A stretch of DNA of 64,000 nt from Bacteroidaceae bacterium (lineage in GTDB: Bacteria; Bacteroidota; Bacteroidia; Bacteroidales; Bacteroidaceae), in assembly GCA_017429525.1 (NCBI GenBank), contig JAFROT010000048.1:1-64000 (forward strand), in the 5' to 3' direction. The notes under the pieces were generated by a model, which saw only the letters and a program-made list of their open reading frames with translations, had not been told where the DNA came from and ran no database searches. The position numbers were made by a program, and so were the translations under genes. Positions 1,971 through 43,205 of the stretch are shown piece after piece (the first letter of the stretch is position 1; every line of letters begins with the position of its first letter).

Positions 1971-4900
1971 ATGAAACGTTTATTCACATCACTTGCTCTG
2001 TTGGCGATGATGGTCGCAGGCTATACGCCTACGGCGCTGGCATCCTCACTCATCACCGACGACGACCCTTCCGGTCTCATCTGGAAGCAAGGCGACGCAC
2101 TGCTGACCGACGCTTCACAGATCACCTCCAACAACACCGAGAGCGGCTTCCCGCCCAGCAACCTGTTGCGCCCCGAGAGCGATGGCGTAGGCACGGGCCA
2201 GTACATCTGGCACTCCTCGTGGGCCAACCCCGGGCCGCTGCCTGCGGGCACCGACACCTACCTGCAAGTGCATTTCGCTGAGGCCGAGCAGCACATCTAC
2301 TTCTCGATGGTAGGCTCCAACTGGAGCTCGACCTACGACACGCCCACCGACATCATCATCCAAGGCGCCAACCTGCCCGATGGCGAGTGGACCGAGATCG
2401 TGCACCTGACCGAGCTGCAGAACGACTTCACCACCTTCCGCCCCGACCACTACACCTCCGACCACATCGACCTCGGCGCCGCCTACACCGACCTCCGCTT
2501 CGTCGTCAAGAACACGATGACCTTCTCGAGCGGGCGCAAGGATGCCAACGGCAACCCCTTCGTCTCCCTCGGCCGCTTCCAGGTCTACGAGGCCTATCAA
2601 AGCGAACCCGATTCCGTCGGGCCCAGTTGGAAAAAGGACGAGGCGCTGCTGACCGAAGCCTCGCAGATTACGGCTAACAGTTCGCAGAACGGCTTCCCGA
2701 CCGACAATTTGCTGCGCCCCGAGAGCGATGGCGTCGGCACGGGCCAGTACATCTGGCATACAGCCTGGAGCGATCCTGCTCCGCTGCCTGCCAACACCGA
2801 TCCGTACTTGCAAGTGCACTTCAACCAGGCCGAGACCGACATCATCTTCACGATGCTGGGCACCACCTGGGGCAGTGCCTGCGACACGCCTACTGAGGTG
2901 ATCATCCAAGGCGCCAACTTGCCCGACGGCGAGTGGACCGAGATCACGCATCTGACCGACATGCAGGTCGACTTCACCACCTACTCCCCCGACCGCTATG
3001 AGTCGCCTCATATCGCACTCGGAGCCGCCTACACCGACCTCCGCTTCGTCGTCAAGAAGACCATTAACGCCAACAAGAGCGACCGCTACGATGCCAACGG
3101 CAACCCCTTCGTCGCCCTTGGCCGCTTCCAGGTCTACCGCGCTGTCGAGGGTGAGCCCGACCCCATCGACCCGAAGGAGAACATCAACCTGCTGTTCATC
3201 GGCAATAGCATCACCTACGGCGCCACCCTCAGCAATGCCTCCACGCAGGCTCCGCCCATCCTGGCACGCGCTATGGTGGAGCAGGCCACCGGCATCACGA
3301 CCAACGTCTACAACGGAGGCCACTCCGGCATCACCACGCTGGGCTTCCTGCCCGGACGCGACGACTTCACACGCGTCATGGCTGCAGCCAAGGCTTACAA
3401 GAAGAACAACGGAGGGCTCATCTACTTCTCCATCATGCTGGGCACCAACGACAGCGCCATCTCCGGCACCGAAGGGGCTCCTGTCTCCACCGACACCTAC
3501 GGCGCTAACATCCGCAAGATCATCGACGCCCTCATCGCCGGCGTGCCTGAGTGCAAGATCATCCTCAACTATCCCATCTGGTACAGCCCCAACACCCACA
3601 ACGGCGCACGCTACCTCGAAGAGGGCATGAACCGCCTCCACAGCTATTACCCCGTCCTCGATGCCATCGTCGGCGAGTACGAACAGGTCTATGCCGGCAA
3701 CCGCGACGTTTGGGAGTTCTTTGAGGACAACAAGGCCCTGTTCACCGCCGAGAGCGGCAACTCGGGCACCTTCTTCCTCCATCCCAACGCCCTCGGCGCT
3801 ACGCGTCTGGCCGAAATCTGGACACGCAGCATCCTCGAGCTCGCCAAGGCCGACGGCATCGAAGTGAAGAACCCGCCCGCCGAATGGCCCCTCTTCCGCC
3901 CGAGCAACACGAAGAAGTACACCTTCAAGACCTCACGCGGTGACTACGGCACCAAGGATGGCTACCTCACCAACACCGTCAAGGCCGCAGCGGCAGGACC
4001 GAAAGGCGAATTCGCCTTCATCACGCGCGACGACAAGCTCTACCTCTACAGCGTCGCCGACCGCAAGTTCGTCTATCGTGACCCTGTCCCCTACCGCGAC
4101 GACTGGAGCCACTGCCCCCTCTCCGCCACCACCGTCGATCCCTTCAAGGTCAACTACACGGGTGCCAATGCCAACTACCCCTACTACATCACCTCCAACG
4201 GCTACATCCTCAACAGCGCTTCAGGCACCGAGAAGGGCGTTGTCCTCAACACCTGGACCAACTGCGACGCGGGCAACCAGACGGCCATTGTAGAGGCCGG
4301 CGACTTCGACCCTGCCGAAGCTCTCGCCCAGCTCGACGACTACTTCAGCAACCAGCTTGAAGTGCGATTCCGCATCCTCGACACCGAAGGGCGTCAGCTC
4401 GACGAGGTGACCGCCACCGGTCACGCTGGCGACGAGATCACCGTCGTGCCCGGCAACATGCCGCGCCGAGCTTACACCCTCTACACCGTCAAGCAGCCCG
4501 TCACCCTCGAGAAGGGCAAGGACAACGTCGTCGACGTGGAGGCTTCCTTCCAGATGCCTTTCACCACCTCCCCCGACCTCGCCAGCGCCCACTGGTATAA
4601 CCTTGCCCTGCGCGAAGGCGCCGATATCGTCACCGTGGCCAACGACTACGCCTGCAACCTCTCTGCCACCACCGACGAACTGCTCTCGCCCGAGTACCAA
4701 TGGGCCTTTCAGGGCAACCCCTACGAGGGCATCGTCGTCGTCAACCGCTCCGATCTCACCAAGACGCTCGGCCACAGCGGCGACCGCGCCGTCCTCGTCG
4801 ACGACGTCTACCGCTGGAACATCTACGAGAACGCCAAAGGCTTTCTCCTCGGCGACAATGAGGGCACCCTCATCAACGAGTACGGCGGTGCGGGCGGCAA

Positions 4901-38725: not shown

Positions 38726-38754
38726 GAGAGCTGAGTCGCGTGGACTCAGCTCTC
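38726..38754. terminator. Perfect 12-bp hairpin over the tyrA stop codon
   Basis: GAGAGCTGAGTC (38726-38737) pairs perfectly with GACTCAGCTCTC (38743-38754) around a five-base loop. It includes the tyrA stop codon and lies between convergent genes. The following T-run on the - strand is weak (GCTTTCTCT). Confidence 0.6.
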
Positions 38755-39522
38755 AATGTTTCGGCGTATTTTGGTCAGGTAAGCCGTCATGGCCGCCTCG
38801 TCGCGGTCGTCGATGATCTGGATGAGCTGTTTCAGCTCCGAGCGTATCATCTCCACTTTGGGCTTCGTGTGCGGGTTGAAGAGGATTTCGCGCAGGAGCG
38901 TGTCGTCCTCCGAGAGCACGCCTCGCGCAATCTTCATATGCCGCTTGAAGGTCGTTCCCGGCGTGTCCTGGTGTTTCATGACGGCCGAGAAGACGAAAGT
39001 CGAGACGAAGGGAATGGAGAGCGAGTAGGACATCGTCTCGTCGTGCTCGGCAAACGAGAGTTCCTTCAGGTTGAGGCCGAGACGCGTGTAGAGGTCGCGG
39101 AAGAAGATGCGGCCCATATAATCGCCCTCGTTGATGAGGATGGCGTTCTCGCGCGAGAGGTCGCCGAGGTTGGCGAAGGTGGGGCCGAACATAGGATGCG
39201 ACGAGGCGTAGCGATGGCCGGTCGACTCGTAGTATTCCTTGAAGCCCGTCTTGACGCTGCTGATGTCCGAGAGGACGCAGTCGCGCCCGATGTGAGGCAG
39301 CAGCTCGTCGAAGACGGTGAGCGTGTACTTCAGCGAGACAGCGTTGATGACGAACTCAGGGTTGAAGGCGTCGACCTCGTCGAGCGAGGTGAACCGCTGC
39401 GTATTGTAGAGGAAGCGCATGCGCTGAGGGTCGTTGTCGTAGACCGCCACTTCATGATCGAAGGAGAGCAGGTCGGTGAAGAACGATCCCATCTTGCCAG
39501 CGCCGAGGATGAGGATTCGCAT
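38746..39522 (-). CDS. tyrA: Prephenate dehydrogenase
   Basis: A 258-residue TyrA that oxidatively decarboxylates prephenate to 4-hydroxyphenylpyruvate for tyrosine. ILILGAGKMGSFF is the NAD-binding loop, SDISSVKTGF and SSHPMFGPTFANL (conserved His) are active-site landmarks. It lacks an ACT domain and a chorismate mutase domain, the latter being supplied by the neighbouring DAHP synthase fusion. It is the last gene of the aromatic operon, 15 bp after the fusion gene. Confidence 0.92.
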   Translation of the reverse strand: MRILILGAGKMGSFFTDLLSFDHEVAVYDNDPQRMRFLYNTQRFTSLDEVDAFNPEFVINAVSLKYTLTVFDELLPHIGRDCVLSDISSVKTGFKEYYESTGHRYASSHPMFGPTFANLGDLSRENAILINEGDYMGRIFFRDLYTRLGLNLKELSFAEHDETMSYSLSIPFVSTFVFSAVMKHQDTPGTTFKRHMKIARGVLSEDDTLLREILFNPHTKPKVEMIRSELKQLIQIIDDRDEAAMTAYLTKIRRNIES

Positions 39523-39537
39523 AGTTGGGAACTGTTT

Positions 39538-40611
39538 TTATTTGTTCATGACTTCAATCTGCTGACGGACGCTCTCGCTGTGGATGGCCTCGTAGACCTT
39601 TTTGACGAAGTCCGGATTCATGCCGCAGAGGGCTCCCTGAGCTCCTCGCTTGTCGAGGATTTCGCTGTAGCGTGTAGTCTGCACGACAGTCATATTATGC
39701 AGTTTCTTGTACTCCGCAATCTCGCGGCTGATGCGCATGCGCTTGGTCAGCAAGTCCATCAGCGCGTTGTCCAGTTCGTCAATTTGCTTGCGCAGTTGGC
39801 TGATACTCTCGGTAGCCTCTACGCTGTCGCGGATGACGAGCCGGTCGAGGATGAAGTCGAGCACCTCGGGCAGCACCTGCTGCTTGGCATCGCTCCAGGC
39901 GCAGTCGGGGTTGCAGTGGCTCTCGATCATCAGTCCGTCGAAGCCCAGGTCCATGGCCTGCTGGGAGATGGGCGCGATTAGGTCGCGTCGGCCGCCCATG
40001 TGACTGGGGTCCGTGATGATGGGCAGGGCGGGGAAGCGGCGCTTCAGCTCGATGGGCAGGTGCCACATCGGCGGGTTGCGGTAGAGCTTCTGGTCTACGC
40101 TCGAGAAGCCTCGATGGATGGCTCCGAGTCGGCGAATGCCGGCATTGTTGATGCGCTGCAAGGCACCCGTCCACAGCTCGATGTCGGGGTTCACGGGGTT
40201 CTTGACGAAGACGGGCACGTCCACGCCTCGGAGGGCGTCGGCGATGGCCTGGACGGAGAAGGGGTTGGCGCTCGTGCGCGCTCCTATCCACAGGATGTCA
40301 ACGCCCGCTGCCAGCGCCGCTTCCACGTGTTCGGGCGTGGCTACTTCCGTGGCGGTGAGCATCCCGGTCTCGGCCTTGACGCGCTGCAGCCAGGGCAGGG
40401 CGGGCTTGCCCTTGCCTTCGAAGCCTCCGGGCTTCGTGCGGGGCTTCCAAACGCCGGCACGGAAGATCTTGATGCCGTTGTCCGCCAGCTGGCGGGCGGT
40501 TTCCATGACCTGCTCCTCGGTTTCGGCCGAGCAGGGGCCGGCAATCACCAACGGGCGTTGCTGTTCAATACCGGGGAGGGAGAGAGGTGATAATTCTAAT
40601 TCGAAATCCAT
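39538..40611 (-). CDS. DAHP synthase fused to chorismate mutase
   Basis: A 357-residue bifunctional enzyme. Residues about 1-255 are a DAHP synthase of the KDO8P-synthase-like type (VIAGPCSAETEEQV, FRAGVWKPRTKPGGFEGKG, ITDPSHMGGRRDL, ESHCNPD). Residues about 270-357 are an AroQ-type all-helical chorismate mutase (ISQLRKQIDELDNALMDLL, KRMRISREIAEYKK). It thus catalyses both the first committed shikimate step and the branch to prephenate, and chorismate or prephenate could feed back through the mutase domain, as in comparable fusions. It sits between the aminotransferase (87-bp gap) and tyrA. Confidence 0.94.
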   Translation of the reverse strand: MDFELELSPLSLPGIEQQRPLVIAGPCSAETEEQVMETARQLADNGIKIFRAGVWKPRTKPGGFEGKGKPALPWLQRVKAETGMLTATEVATPEHVEAALAAGVDILWIGARTSANPFSVQAIADALRGVDVPVFVKNPVNPDIELWTGALQRINNAGIRRLGAIHRGFSSVDQKLYRNPPMWHLPIELKRRFPALPIITDPSHMGGRRDLIAPISQQAMDLGFDGLMIESHCNPDCAWSDAKQQVLPEVLDFILDRLVIRDSVEATESISQLRKQIDELDNALMDLLTKRMRISREIAEYKKLHNMTVVQTTRYSEILDKRGAQGALCGMNPDFVKKVYEAIHSESVRQQIEVMNK

Positions 40612-40698: not shown

Positions 40699-41886
40699 TT
40701 AGTCCTTCAGCTTCAGGCTCGAGATTCGGCGCAGCGCCTCGCGCATCCGTTCGTCTTTGGCGCAGAGCGAGATGCGGACGTAGCGGTTGCCGTTGCTTCC
40801 GAAGATGAAGCCGGGCGCGATGAAGACGCGTGCCTCGTGAAGGACGCGCTCCGTGAGGTCCTCGACGTTGGCAGTCGAGTCGGGTATGCGCCCCCAGAGG
40901 AACATGCCCGTCTGCGTCGCGTCGAAGGTGCATCCCAGCGCCGTCATAATCTGCTCGGCGATGGCGCGGCGCGTCGCGTAGACGCGCACGTTGGCCTGCT
41001 CGTGCCACGCGTCCTCATTGTTCGTGAGCGCCTCGGCGGCTGCTAATTGCAGCGCGCGGAAGGTGCCGCTGTCGATGTTGGTCTTCACCTTCAGAATCCA
41101 GCGGATGAACTCGGCATTCGTCGAGAGCATGCCTACGCGCCAGCCAGGCATGTTATGGCTCTTCGACATCGAGTTGAACTCGATGCAGCACTCCTTGGCA
41201 CCAGCCACTTGGAGTATGCTGAGTCGTTCTCCGTCGTTGAGGATGAAGCTGTAGGGGTTGTCGTTGACGACGACGATGCCGTGCTCCTGTGCGAAGGCCA
41301 CCAGCCGCTCGTAAGTCTCCCGACGTGCGCGTGCACCTGTCGGCATGTGCGGGTAGTTGGTCCACATGAGCTTGACGCGCGAGAGGTCCATCCGTTCCAG
41401 CTGCTCGAAGTCCGGTTGCCAGCCTCCAGCCTCCGTCAGGTCGTAGTTCACCACTTCCGCACCCAGCAGGCGCGAGAGGGCCGTATAGGTCGGATAGCCG
41501 GGATTGGGCACGAGCACCTGCTCGCCGGGGTTGACGAAGGCCAGGGTCACGTGTAAGATACCTTCTTTCGAACCGATGAGGGGTTGAATCTCGGTCTGCG
41601 GCTCGAGCGTGACGCCGTACCAGCGCTTGTAGAAAGCGGCCATGGCCTGCTTCAGTTCGGGCGTGCCTACGGTGGGCTGATAGCCGTGGCCGTCGGGTTT
41701 GCGCGCTTCGTCGCAGAGCACTTGGATGGTGCGCTCCGACGGTGGCATGTCGGGGCTGCCGATAGCCAGCGAGATGATATCCCGCCCCTCGGCATTCAGT
41801 TGAGCCACTTCCTTCAGCTTGCGCGAGAAGTAGTACTCCTGTACGTCGGCCAGTCGGTCGGCAGGCTTAAATGCTTTCTTTTCCAT
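40699..41886 (-). CDS. Class I/II aminotransferase, probably aromatic
   Basis: A fold-type I PLP aminotransferase of about 395 residues. Landmarks are LAIGSPDMPPSE, NPGYPTY, WTNYPHMPTGA, NDNPYSF (PLP-ring Asp region), SMSKSHNMPGWRVG with the PLP Lys, and YVRISLC with the substrate-carboxylate Arg. The operon places it between pheA and tyrA products, so it probably transaminates phenylpyruvate and 4-hydroxyphenylpyruvate. The ATG at 41886 gives a 20-bp overlap with pheA; a TTG at 41901 is possible but less likely. Confidence 0.88.
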   Translation of the reverse strand: MEKKAFKPADRLADVQEYYFSRKLKEVAQLNAEGRDIISLAIGSPDMPPSERTIQVLCDEARKPDGHGYQPTVGTPELKQAMAAFYKRWYGVTLEPQTEIQPLIGSKEGILHVTLAFVNPGEQVLVPNPGYPTYTALSRLLGAEVVNYDLTEAGGWQPDFEQLERMDLSRVKLMWTNYPHMPTGARARRETYERLVAFAQEHGIVVVNDNPYSFILNDGERLSILQVAGAKECCIEFNSMSKSHNMPGWRVGMLSTNAEFIRWILKVKTNIDSGTFRALQLAAAEALTNNEDAWHEQANVRVYATRRAIAEQIMTALGCTFDATQTGMFLWGRIPDSTANVEDLTERVLHEARVFIAPGFIFGSNGNRYVRISLCAKDERMREALRRISSLKLKD

Positions 41887-42709
41887 GCTTGTATTCTCCA
41901 AGGATTTTCAGGTCAGAAGTCAGTGGTCGAATGGCGTCGATGCCTTGCGAGTAGCGCGTGTAGTCGTTGAACTGGACGTCGACGTAGAACAGGTATTCCC
42001 ATTCGCGGCCGATGATGGGCAGCGACTGGATCTTCGTCAGGTTCAACTTGTAGAACGAGAGGATGGAGAGCACCTGCGAGAGCGAGCCCTCCTCGTGAGG
42101 CAGCGCGAAGACGATACTGGCCTTGTCTGTCGTGAGTATATTTCTTAGTAGATTCGCGCGCGCAGGCGAAGCGATGACCAGGAAGCGCGTGAAGTTGTGT
42201 TTGTTCGTTTCAATGCCTTGCTCCAGGACCTTGAGGCCGTACATCTGGGCGAGGGCTGCCGAGCCGATGGCCGCGTGATGGTGCATCTGTCCCTGGGCGA
42301 TGGTGCGTGCAGCGCCAGCCGTGTCCGTGGCCTCGACCACTTTCAGCGTGGGGTGCTGCCCGAGGAAGTCGCGGCACTGCATCAGCGCCACCGGGTGGGA
42401 GTGGACCTCTTGGATGTCGTCCCAGTCGTCGTCGGGCAGACAGAGCAGCGAATGTTTGATGCGCAGCTTGTGCTCGCCCACAATCGTGGCGCCCGATTCG
42501 CGCAGCAGCTCGTAGTTATGCAGCAGCGAACCGGCGATCGTGTTCTCGATGGCCACGAAGCCGATGGCCGTCGGGTCGTCACGGAGCGTGGCGAACACCT
42601 GCTCGAAGGTGGAGCAGCAGATAAGACCTATCTCCTCGTCCTCGAAGAACTGATGGGCAGCGATATCGTGGAAGCTGCCCTCTATGCCTTGGATCGCAAT
42701 GCGTTTCAT
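41867..42709 (-). CDS. pheA: Prephenate dehydratase
   Basis: A 280-residue monofunctional PheA. It converts prephenate to phenylpyruvate. The periplasmic-binding-like catalytic half starts AIQGIEGSFHDIAAHQFF and includes FVAIENTIAGSL; HNFTRFLVIA holds the Thr-Arg-Phe motif. A C-terminal ACT domain (about 195-275: IVFALPHEEGSLSQVLSIL, ESRP-like site replaced by TKIQSLP) would mediate phenylalanine inhibition. It is the first gene of the operon and is preceded by the leader peptide and terminator, so its transcription is predicted to be attenuated. Confidence 0.94.
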   Translation of the reverse strand: MKRIAIQGIEGSFHDIAAHQFFEDEEIGLICCSTFEQVFATLRDDPTAIGFVAIENTIAGSLLHNYELLRESGATIVGEHKLRIKHSLLCLPDDDWDDIQEVHSHPVALMQCRDFLGQHPTLKVVEATDTAGAARTIAQGQMHHHAAIGSAALAQMYGLKVLEQGIETNKHNFTRFLVIASPARANLLRNILTTDKASIVFALPHEEGSLSQVLSILSFYKLNLTKIQSLPIIGREWEYLFYVDVQFNDYTRYSQGIDAIRPLTSDLKILGEYKHGKESI

Positions 42710-42733: not shown

Positions 42734-42766
42734 CAAAAAGAAATCCCGCTTCTGGAGTGAAGCGGG
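42734..42766 (-). terminator. Attenuator terminator before pheA
   Basis: On the - strand CCCGCTTC (42759-42766) pairs perfectly with GAAGCGGG (42745-42752) around a six-base loop and is followed by ATTTCTTTTT. The pheA start lies 25-30 bp downstream. The position between leader peptide and first gene makes it the termination branch of an attenuator. Confidence 0.9.
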
Positions 42767-42832
42767 ACCCTTGATTACTATTTTCAATTTCAATTTTCCA
42801 ATTTCAAATTGACGCACGGCCTGCCGCTTCAC
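42757..42832 (-). promoter_or_regulatory. Antiterminator pairing of the pheA leader
   Basis: GTGAAGCGG (42824-42832), which overlaps the leader-peptide stop codon, is exactly complementary to CCGCTTCAC (42757-42765), the 5' arm and loop of the terminator. The two structures are mutually exclusive. A ribosome stalled on the aromatic codons would leave this segment free to block the terminator; a ribosome reaching the stop codon would cover it and allow termination. The loop between contains 7-bp-period CAATTTC repeats (42785-42812). Confidence 0.8.
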
Positions 42833-42885
42833 CTCTGCTGGGTAAAGTAAAAGTAAAACCAATAATATGCGTTCAAGTGTTGCAT
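42829..42885 (-). CDS. Aromatic leader peptide of the pheA operon
   Basis: An 18-codon ORF encoding MQHLNAYYWFYFYFTQQR. Codons 7-14 are Tyr, Tyr, Trp, Phe, Tyr, Phe, Tyr, Phe without interruption, which is far beyond chance and matches the logic of amino-acid operon leader peptides. It begins about 20 nt after the predicted transcription start, and its stop overlaps the antiterminator segment. The mixture of Tyr, Phe and Trp codons suits an operon that makes both Phe and Tyr. No strong Shine-Dalgarno is visible, as is common in this phylum. Confidence 0.88.
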   Translation of the reverse strand: MQHLNAYYWFYFYFTQQR

Positions 42886-42912
42886 GGATGTCTTGTTCTT
42901 GTTTTGACGCCG

Positions 42913-42944
42913 CAAAAGTATATATTTTCTGTGATACCGCCAAA
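42913..42944 (-). promoter_or_regulatory. Promoter of the aromatic operon
   Basis: On the - strand TTTG (42941-42944) and TACTTTTG (42913-42920) are 20 bp apart, a full -33/-7 match. Transcription should start near 42906, ahead of the leader peptide. Confidence 0.8.
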
Positions 42945-43052
42945 TAAAATATCATTTTTTCATTAAAAACCTCCAAAAACTATCCTTTTGTACAGATAAT
43001 AGTCGTGGCAGCAGACCCAATGAGCCAGGAAGTGAACCCATGCGGGGCCTGA

Positions 43053-43205
43053 GAAATGGACAATGGAAAATGGACAATGGAAAATGGACAATGGAAGATG
43101 GACTATGGAACATGAATCGCTCGGCCCAAAGCGACGCTTCTTGAGGTATCAAGCGTCACCCTTCGGGATGCCGAGCGATTCATTGTCCATTTTCCATTGT
43201 CCATT
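43053..43205. repeat. Heptamer-armed inverted repeat (AATGGAC/AATGGAA)
   Basis: The left side is eight heptamers of AATGGAC or AATGGAA type (43053-43112). The inner perfect stem is AATCGCTCGGC (43115-43125) with 43170-43180, and a nested GACGCTT/AAGCGTC stem lies within. The right side (43181-43205) again spells the heptamers in reverse complement, so several pairing registers are possible. It lies between the divergent aromatic operon and putA. Confidence 0.85.

Follow-up and report, generated by a model that had tools for sequence, protein, structure and literature searches.

How is transcription of the pheA operon, on the minus strand of the window (the whole stretch of DNA analysed, 64,000 nucleotides), controlled? 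The first-pass annotation had read the region upstream of pheA as a ribosome-mediated attenuator, and the elements behind that reading are present where it had placed them (Table 1): the promoter TTTG-N20-TACTTTTG, an 18-codon leader ORF with eight consecutive Tyr/Trp/Phe codons at 42885-42829, and a 9-nt segment over the leader stop codon (42832-42824) that is exactly complementary to 42765-42757. The terminator was recovered with its U run, about 25-30 nt ahead of the pheA start (42709); its stem, given earlier as a perfect 8 bp, is 9 bp long (10 bp in RNAfold; dG −17.3), with the sequence TCCCGCTTC-ACTCCA-GAAGCGGGA, then TTTCTTTTT. The simple promoter scan used the sigma-70 consensus, and the Bacteroidota-type promoter lay outside its reach. 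The operon content proposed earlier (DAHP synthase, chorismate mutase, pheA, tyrA and an aminotransferase) was matched, mostly below curated cut-offs. Because the NCBIfam matches fell below those cut-offs (the PF00800 match of pheA was above), the gene names rest on best match and context. The order pheA, aminotransferase, DAHP synthase/chorismate mutase, tyrA was found in 63 of 67 named-genome loci of at least 7.8 kb, among the matches listed.

Table 1. Parts of the pheA leader region and genes of the operon in the window.
Feature	Position	Strand	Basis or remark
Promoter, Bacteroidota type: TTTG 42944-42941, N20, TACTTTTG 42920-42913	42913..42944	-	sequence
Leader peptide ORF, MQHLNAYYWFYFYFTQQR, then stop	42829..42885	-	sequence; aromatic leader in relatives
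Control codons YYWFYFYF = TAT TAT TGG TTT TAC TTT TAC TTT	42844..42867	-	
Segment 0, ACGCAU, putative protector hairpin, outer 5' strand	42867..42872	-	pairs with 42817-42812
Segment 1, CUUUACC, putative protector hairpin, inner 5' strand, mostly last aromatic codons	42841..42847	-	
Segment 1 partner, GGUGAAG	42833-42827	-	
Segment 2, GTGAAGCGG / GUGAAGCGG, antiterminator 5' strand, spans leader stop codon	42824..42832	-	
Segment 2b, GUGCGU, putative protector hairpin, outer 3' strand	42812..42817	-	
Segment 3, CCGCTTCAC / CCGCUUCAC, common to antiterminator and terminator	42757..42765	-	exact complement of segment 2
Intrinsic terminator, hairpin 42767-42744 and U tract	42735..42767	-	folding, covariation
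pheA, prephenate dehydratase, first operon gene	41867..42709	-	NCBIfam PRK11898 3.8e-58 (below curated cut-off); PF00800 above cut-off
Aminotransferase, LL-DAP/aspartate aminotransferase type	40699..41901	-	below curated cut-offs; comes after pheA in relatives too
DAHP synthase fused to chorismate mutase	39538..40611	-	below curated cut-offs
tyrA, prephenate dehydrogenase	38746..39522	-	below curated cut-offs

The run YYWFYFYF is the sole stretch of at least five F/Y/W residues in the six frames of the 64-kb window, and the core TACTTTTACTTT occurs once in the draft genome, at the pheA leader. Folding of the leader RNA against shuffles gave a z score of −2.46, with 1 of 200 shuffles equally good. 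Direct repeats resembling TCCATTTTCCATTGTCCATT were seen upstream of the promoter (43040-43150), and repeats resembling AATTGAAA in the stretch that separates segment 2 from the terminator (42773-42806).

A pheA match was obtained in 129 of 139 genomes of the genus and in 263 of 301 of the family, and upstream regions were drawn from these and from a named-genome collection (the best 80 of 552 confirmed loci). The 194 upstreams read were collapsed to 160 distinct ones; genome G063 is still represented twice (L121, L174), and two loci with an 11-base filler (L001, L150) were left out. When a leader was defined by at least six F/Y/W within ten residues, 149 of the 160 distinct family upstreams carried one, and folding revealed a terminator hairpin in 145 of these 149 (median −18.8 kcal/mol); no hairpin was found by folding in L027, L069, L165 and L176. 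Among the 11 upstreams in which no leader was found, L003 ends with its contig in mid-leader, and in the others, read by eye, pheA follows another gene or stands directly after a promoter. Of 143 relatives' loci (those of the 145 with sufficient upstream sequence), 135 have TAnnTTTG no more than 75 nt ahead of the start of the leader, compared with 4.5 expected in shuffles. Leader and hairpin were also present in 37 of 40 chosen upstreams from other families of the order, although L207 probably is a chance match, and in 10 of 12 from other orders of the class; both were found in none of the eight chosen pheA upstreams from outside the class. Loci were hand-picked from longer lists at the levels of order (40), class/phylum (20), far genus (39) and family (20). 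Judged by these signatures, the putative attenuator goes beyond the window's genus, to most loci sampled in other families and other orders.

The last four aromatic residues read YFYF in 135 of the 145 pheA-led leaders and YYYF in 2, and the aromatic core is kept at the peptide level in most sampled loci of the class. The leader had been described as a mixture of all three aromatic residues, which holds for Tyr and Phe; Trp is a minor ingredient, its codon TGG occupying position −6 in 13 of 145 leaders only, and the conserved sensor is therefore Tyr/Phe. On the same count a strong general role of Trp is unsupported, although the ribosome model described below allows a working stall at a Trp codon. 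In alignment A1, comprising 59 of the 145 loci picked for diversity prior to counting, the invariant columns fall within the coding run and the stems. The type strain of Phocaeicola sartorii (L102) carries the leader MKALYNTYFFFFYYFYF..., and in genome G021 both of the two pheA copies, L130 and L149, have an aromatic leader of their own (MKHNFYFYSWYYFTQQR and MRQSSNFFYGYYFYFAERL).

The operon is kept without a leader in four genomes (G025, G037, G047, G067). At L133, L134, L135 and L148 the leader is absent and the pheA operon intact (L296-L299), and an inverted repeat resembling TTTCTACC...GGTAGAAA was seen by eye ahead of the pheA promoter; in those four genomes it is perhaps an operator that replaced the attenuator. 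Of 295 genomes sampled across the order, 169 gave no PF00800 match (135 of the 243 with a completeness of 90% or more), and Phe auxotrophy or another route may therefore be common in the order.

We then turn to the RNA helices. The longest Watson-Crick run between segments 2 and 3 averaged 9.0, compared with 4.8 in shuffles, and exceeded all 50 shuffles in 109 of 145 loci, hence not in all; for these shuffle figures, the end of the aromatic run was placed less exactly than in the later counts. In the order-wide set, 22 of 37 loci had a 2:3 shuffle p below 0.05. Within the 59-member alignment, 93.9% of the antiterminator (2:3) cells pair and both-side changes occur in 6 of 8 pairs; cells with such changes number 21, compared with 5.3 in shuffles, and slid controls pair at 37-57%. 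For the terminator (3:4), 95.0% of cells pair, 6 of 9 pairs show both-side changes, and 37 cells are changed on both sides, compared with 11.5 in shuffles. Unpaired 2:3 cells numbered 76 of 1136. Both helices share segment 3, so that a genuine switch has to change at three places together. Matched changes in segments 2, 3 and 4 at one or more positions were found in 36 of 142 loci (three of the 145 had no core and were left out): in L117 and L126 segment 3 has changed from C to T, with A in both partner segments, and in L149 from G to A, with T in both. An intrinsic terminator between the leader and the first gene is thus indicated by sequence and covariation, together with a mutually exclusive antiterminator that has one strand in common with it. 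The comparison of relatives that had been proposed as a check, for aromatic codons and compensatory stem changes, was carried out with a positive outcome, and with the leaders in 149 of 160 family upstreams it supports the attenuation reading, function in the cell being inferred.

In every one of the 145 loci, segment 2 starts 7-19 nt past the last aromatic codon. The leader stop codon, by contrast, ends between 46 nt downstream and 7 nt upstream of the segment 2 start, and the AAGCGG-like core lies within the ORF in frame 1 in 51 loci, frame 0 in 39 and frame 2 in 1; it runs across the stop codon in frame 2 in 36 loci, the window among them, follows the stop in 13 and was not found in 5. The position of segment 2 is held while frame and stop codon vary, indicating that the RNA is kept and not the peptide tail. 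We modelled a ribosome with an assumed E. coli-like footprint on 141 loci (four with a 2:3 run shorter than 6 were left out). With the A site at any one of the run's last eight codons, the mean modelled 2:3 pairing was 0.95-0.98; past the run it fell from 0.83 at the first codon through 0.51 to 0.06 at the third. The model places the switch point where the aromatic run ends. It did not bear out the idea that action is confined to the last four codons, as it frees segment 2 from the last eight. In relatives with long ORFs, segment 2 could re-emerge behind the terminating ribosome, which the model ignores.

A putative protector hairpin, a part absent from the first-pass annotation, was recognised in addition. 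Its inner helix pairs the last aromatic codons with the 5' part of segment 2 (CUUUACC/GGUGAAG in the window, CUUUGCA/UGUGAAG in Prevotella-type and UUUUACUUU/AAAGUGAAG in Bacteroides-type leaders), and the longest GU-allowed run between segments 1 and 2 has a median of 8 in the 145 loci. Third codon positions at the end of the run are nearly fixed (TTT in 143/145, TAC in 142/143 Tyr, TTT in 133/140 Phe) and freer further up, and the near-fixed positions fit inner-helix pairing. A synonymous-codon test of the same pairing was weak (−7.41 vs −6.63 kcal/mol; best 5% in just 18 of 145 loci). The outer helix joins codons before the run to a stretch after segment 2, with letters that differ by genus (ACGCAU/GUGCGU in the window, UACGGC/GCCGUA, GCAUAC/GUAUGC). 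Over 141 loci (four without a core match were left out), its mean duplex energy was −8.7 kcal/mol, compared with −6.3 for the partners of other loci and −5.1 for shuffled sequences; 110 of the 141 loci beat their own mismatched mean, and no more than 51 ranked in the top 5% against mismatched partners. On average, the outer helix is therefore maintained through sequence change among relatives, and at the level of sequence a protector hairpin exists. In a ribosome-free model, 2:3 formed with a probability of 0.74 on average (0.97 for the window) before segment 4 exists. Since equilibrium favours 2:3 over the protector, the latter would have to act by timing or pausing.

Taken as a whole, the element is very probably a ribosome-mediated transcription attenuator, with charged tRNA-Phe and tRNA-Tyr as its signals; we infer transcription, translation, stalling and amino-acid response. 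To judge from the promoter, RNA polymerase would start a little over 20 nt upstream of the leader, with a ribosome following. When Phe and Tyr are ample, the ribosome would pass the aromatic codons onto segment 2; with segment 2 covered, 3 would pair with 4 and transcription would end ahead of pheA. When Phe or Tyr is scarce, the ribosome would stall in the aromatic run and open the protector (0/1 with 2/2b), and segment 2, set free, would pair with 3 before 4 is made, so that the operon would be transcribed.

Operon splits bear on which amino acids are sensed, as the Phe/Tyr content of the leader, read from the relatives' sequences, tends to follow operon content. In seven genus genomes (G010, G019, G059, G081, G097, G114, G132) pheA is leaderless and away from the operon, and leader, segment 2 and hairpin stand ahead of the aminotransferase in 7/7; behind it come DAHP synthase/chorismate mutase in 7/7 and then tyrA in 6, the seventh locus (L300) ending before. 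One of these pheA-less operons, L292, has a poor U tract and ends YFYF; the last four residues are YYYF in the other six of seven. The mean Tyr share of F+Y was 0.73 in the seven, compared with 0.55 in 56 pheA-led genus leaders (Mann-Whitney p 0.00016 against the 56 and 0.0019 against the 22 nearest, with relatedness ignored; both comparison sets include three pheA-alone leaders). In an aminotransferase tree of 33 rows, the state "pheA gone" required five changes, at least four of them on well-supported branches; operon transfer between genomes could mimic repeated pheA loss, and independence is not proven.

Three genus leaders stand before pheA alone, L010 (MYNTSASFFSNFFFVFTWRR), L012 (MQHRNAFFWFYFNFTQTR) and L016 (MRQFNSFYWFYFDFTQQG), with Tyr shares of 0.14, 0.17 and 0.29. 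Their codon −2 encodes V, N and D, respectively, and Tyr in the other 142 pheA-led leaders; this residue was read by eye for L010, L121, L174 and L177, where an aromatic that follows a small gap could pass for the last one, and in the leader counts the anchor of L016 sat a codon pair too early, ahead of its Asp. In a different family, genome G435 has a solo pheA with a convergent gene behind it, and the leader of this pheA, MTRFFTHFFFFFTQQ, contains seven Phe but no Tyr; elsewhere the genome has a tyrA-DAHP synthase operon, with tyrA above the NCBIfam cut-off, whose leader MNNTFGYYAFYYYFFYNN has a Tyr share of 0.60 and ends neither YFYF nor YYYF. Phe-rich leaders before a solo pheA were seen in 4 genomes. 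On the contig of L012, the locus L038 carries the pheA with the Phe-rich leader and, 3.3 kb on, a second attenuator-like leader, MKFFNAYAYFYYYFTQTR, before an aminotransferase, where the locus ends; this second leader ends YYYF, and its whole Tyr share of 0.56 is ordinary. It looks as if the attenuator had been duplicated and the two inputs divided between specialised copies. Across nine pheA-less operons, 7 leaders end YYYF and 6 have a Tyr share of at least 0.67. Tyr occupies −3 in 7 of 8 pheA-less genus operons, compared with 3 of 145 pheA-led leaders. There are counter-cases, pheA-led with the aminotransferase behind: a Tyr share of 0.27 in L164, and of 0.33 in four listings from two Paraprevotella-type genomes. 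Relatives' genes were named by NCBIfam for pheA, tyrA and DAHP synthase of G435, trpB in L035 and hisG in L238; the others were found by tblastn with the window's proteins, which missed divergent tyrA. We consider it reasonably likely that these sequences belong to one attenuator family of the Bacteroidia, and that evolution retunes its control codons at operon splits: the switch remains on the aminotransferase-DAHP synthase/chorismate mutase-tyrA half and turns to Tyr (Phe to Tyr at −3), and a leader-keeping pheA loses Tyr (at −2).

The same attenuator might respond to one amino acid, Phe or Tyr alone, or to general translation stress, the rest of the run being filler. Such a view draws on the model, in which any stall in the run frees segment 2 and geometry singles out no codon, and on the Trp codons of some leaders. 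Both residues are held, however, in the YFYF of 135/145 leaders, Tyr −2 is lost before a solo pheA in 3/3 genus leaders (V, N, D), and Tyr at −3 marks 7/8 pheA-less genus operons against 3/145 pheA-led ones, all of which make a single input unlikely. Control of the terminator by a metabolite riboswitch or an RNA-binding protein (TRAP- or T-box-like), with an incidental ORF, is more doubtful still. It would equally use an antiterminator/terminator pair, and the four relatives with a promoter and inverted repeat instead of a leader leave room for protein control. Against it, no Rfam family except a tRNA reaches gathering score in the window, the best Rfam leader family is far below threshold, and the invariant columns of the 59-member alignment lie in the coding run as well as the stems.

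We regard as least probable, and scarcely credible, that the leader peptide is a functional small protein and the hairpin merely an upstream terminator. The conservation of the aromatic core as peptide across most sampled loci of the class would suit a small protein. Past the core, however, the amino acids differ according to the frame in which segment 2 is read, whereas the RNA segment itself is retained, the final aromatic codons hardly vary at their third positions (TTT 143/145, TAC 142/143), and changes are matched across segments 2-3-4; an ordinary small protein was rejected because the frame of the conserved RNA segment differs between genera. Attenuation with a double Phe/Tyr input is the preferred reading.

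Searched against Rfam, the window gave nothing but a tRNA at gathering score. Phe_leader (RF01859) scored 15.8 bits at the locus (E = 5), below its gathering threshold of 55; the resemblance is that its model aligns full-length, on the right strand, at 42735-42878. In E. coli, the pheA leader (pheL) encodes a Phe-rich peptide before pheA, with a terminator and a competing antiterminator. The window differs from it in that the control residues are both Tyr and Phe and the operon adds DAHP synthase/chorismate mutase and tyrA, and among the window's relatives the position of the stop codon moves freely. One leader with codons for several end products is also known from E. coli ilvGMEDA and thr; here the residues are Phe and Tyr, and in relatives the mixture separates at the operon split. 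The kind of attenuator is thus classical, and what is unusual is the double Phe/Tyr input, the frame-free antiterminator and the retuning after splits. Vitreschak et al. (2004, FEMS Microbiol Lett) reportedly extended amino-acid operon attenuation to some Bacteroidetes/Chlorobi, phenylalanine included. Bacteroid-trp RNA (RF01692; gathering score 49 bits), which we take to be a trp attenuator, had no match in the window or draft genome and none at the locus at E up to 10, in a search whose control, Bacteroides ihuae, was matched. It has been described as a candidate cis-regulatory RNA in Bacteroidetes (PMC2864571). Structured, transcribed 5' regions without an Rfam match have been reported upstream of pheA and hisG in Flavobacterium psychrophilum, these elements are kept in other Flavobacteriaceae genera, and strong clues were noted for leader-peptide attenuation before amino-acid operons (PMC9723704); the main text of that paper presents the pheA element without leader sequence, segments, covariation or sensed amino acid. 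Small ORFs in the 5' UTRs of B. thetaiotaomicron are reported to resemble leader peptides (PMC7366714). No further description of a Bacteroidia pheA leader was found in the part of the open-licence PMC literature covered, which does not prove absence.

In the class as a whole, messages mostly have no Shine-Dalgarno sequence. Ribosome-mediated attenuation works only if a ribosome trails RNA polymerase closely, and to find it conserved in such a class implies transcription-translation coupling there, a question that becomes testable by one reporter. The lack of Shine-Dalgarno sequences is described for most messages of Flavobacterium (PMC9723704). Operon splits amount to a natural mutagenesis of the sensor, in which one-codon changes predict the amino acid of each variant, and the evolutionary evidence on what the attenuator senses is unusually direct. 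Phe/Tyr synthesis in common bacteria of the gut and rumen would be governed by this switch.

Similar leaders were noticed before other amino-acid genes. No leader is claimed for ilvB in the window's genome, where a leucine-rich ORF sits upstream of the ilvB promoter. In the same genome (G000:C5), the locus L238 has a His-rich ORF on the minus strand (2321-2274), ATG TCA TTC GAG TTC CTT TGC TCT CAT CAT CAT CAC CAC GGC GCG TAG (MSFEFLCSHHHHHGA), upstream of hisG (above the NCBIfam cut-off); by eye, it is followed by GGCTTGCCG...CGGCAGGCC and a T-rich tail, and the element is probably a His attenuator. At L035, the leader MKHVSYFWWWQCSRFKKS (4486-4542), with three Trp codons and a terminator-like stretch, precedes trpB (above the cut-off), and this is probably a trp attenuator downstream of a pheA with a Phe-type leader.
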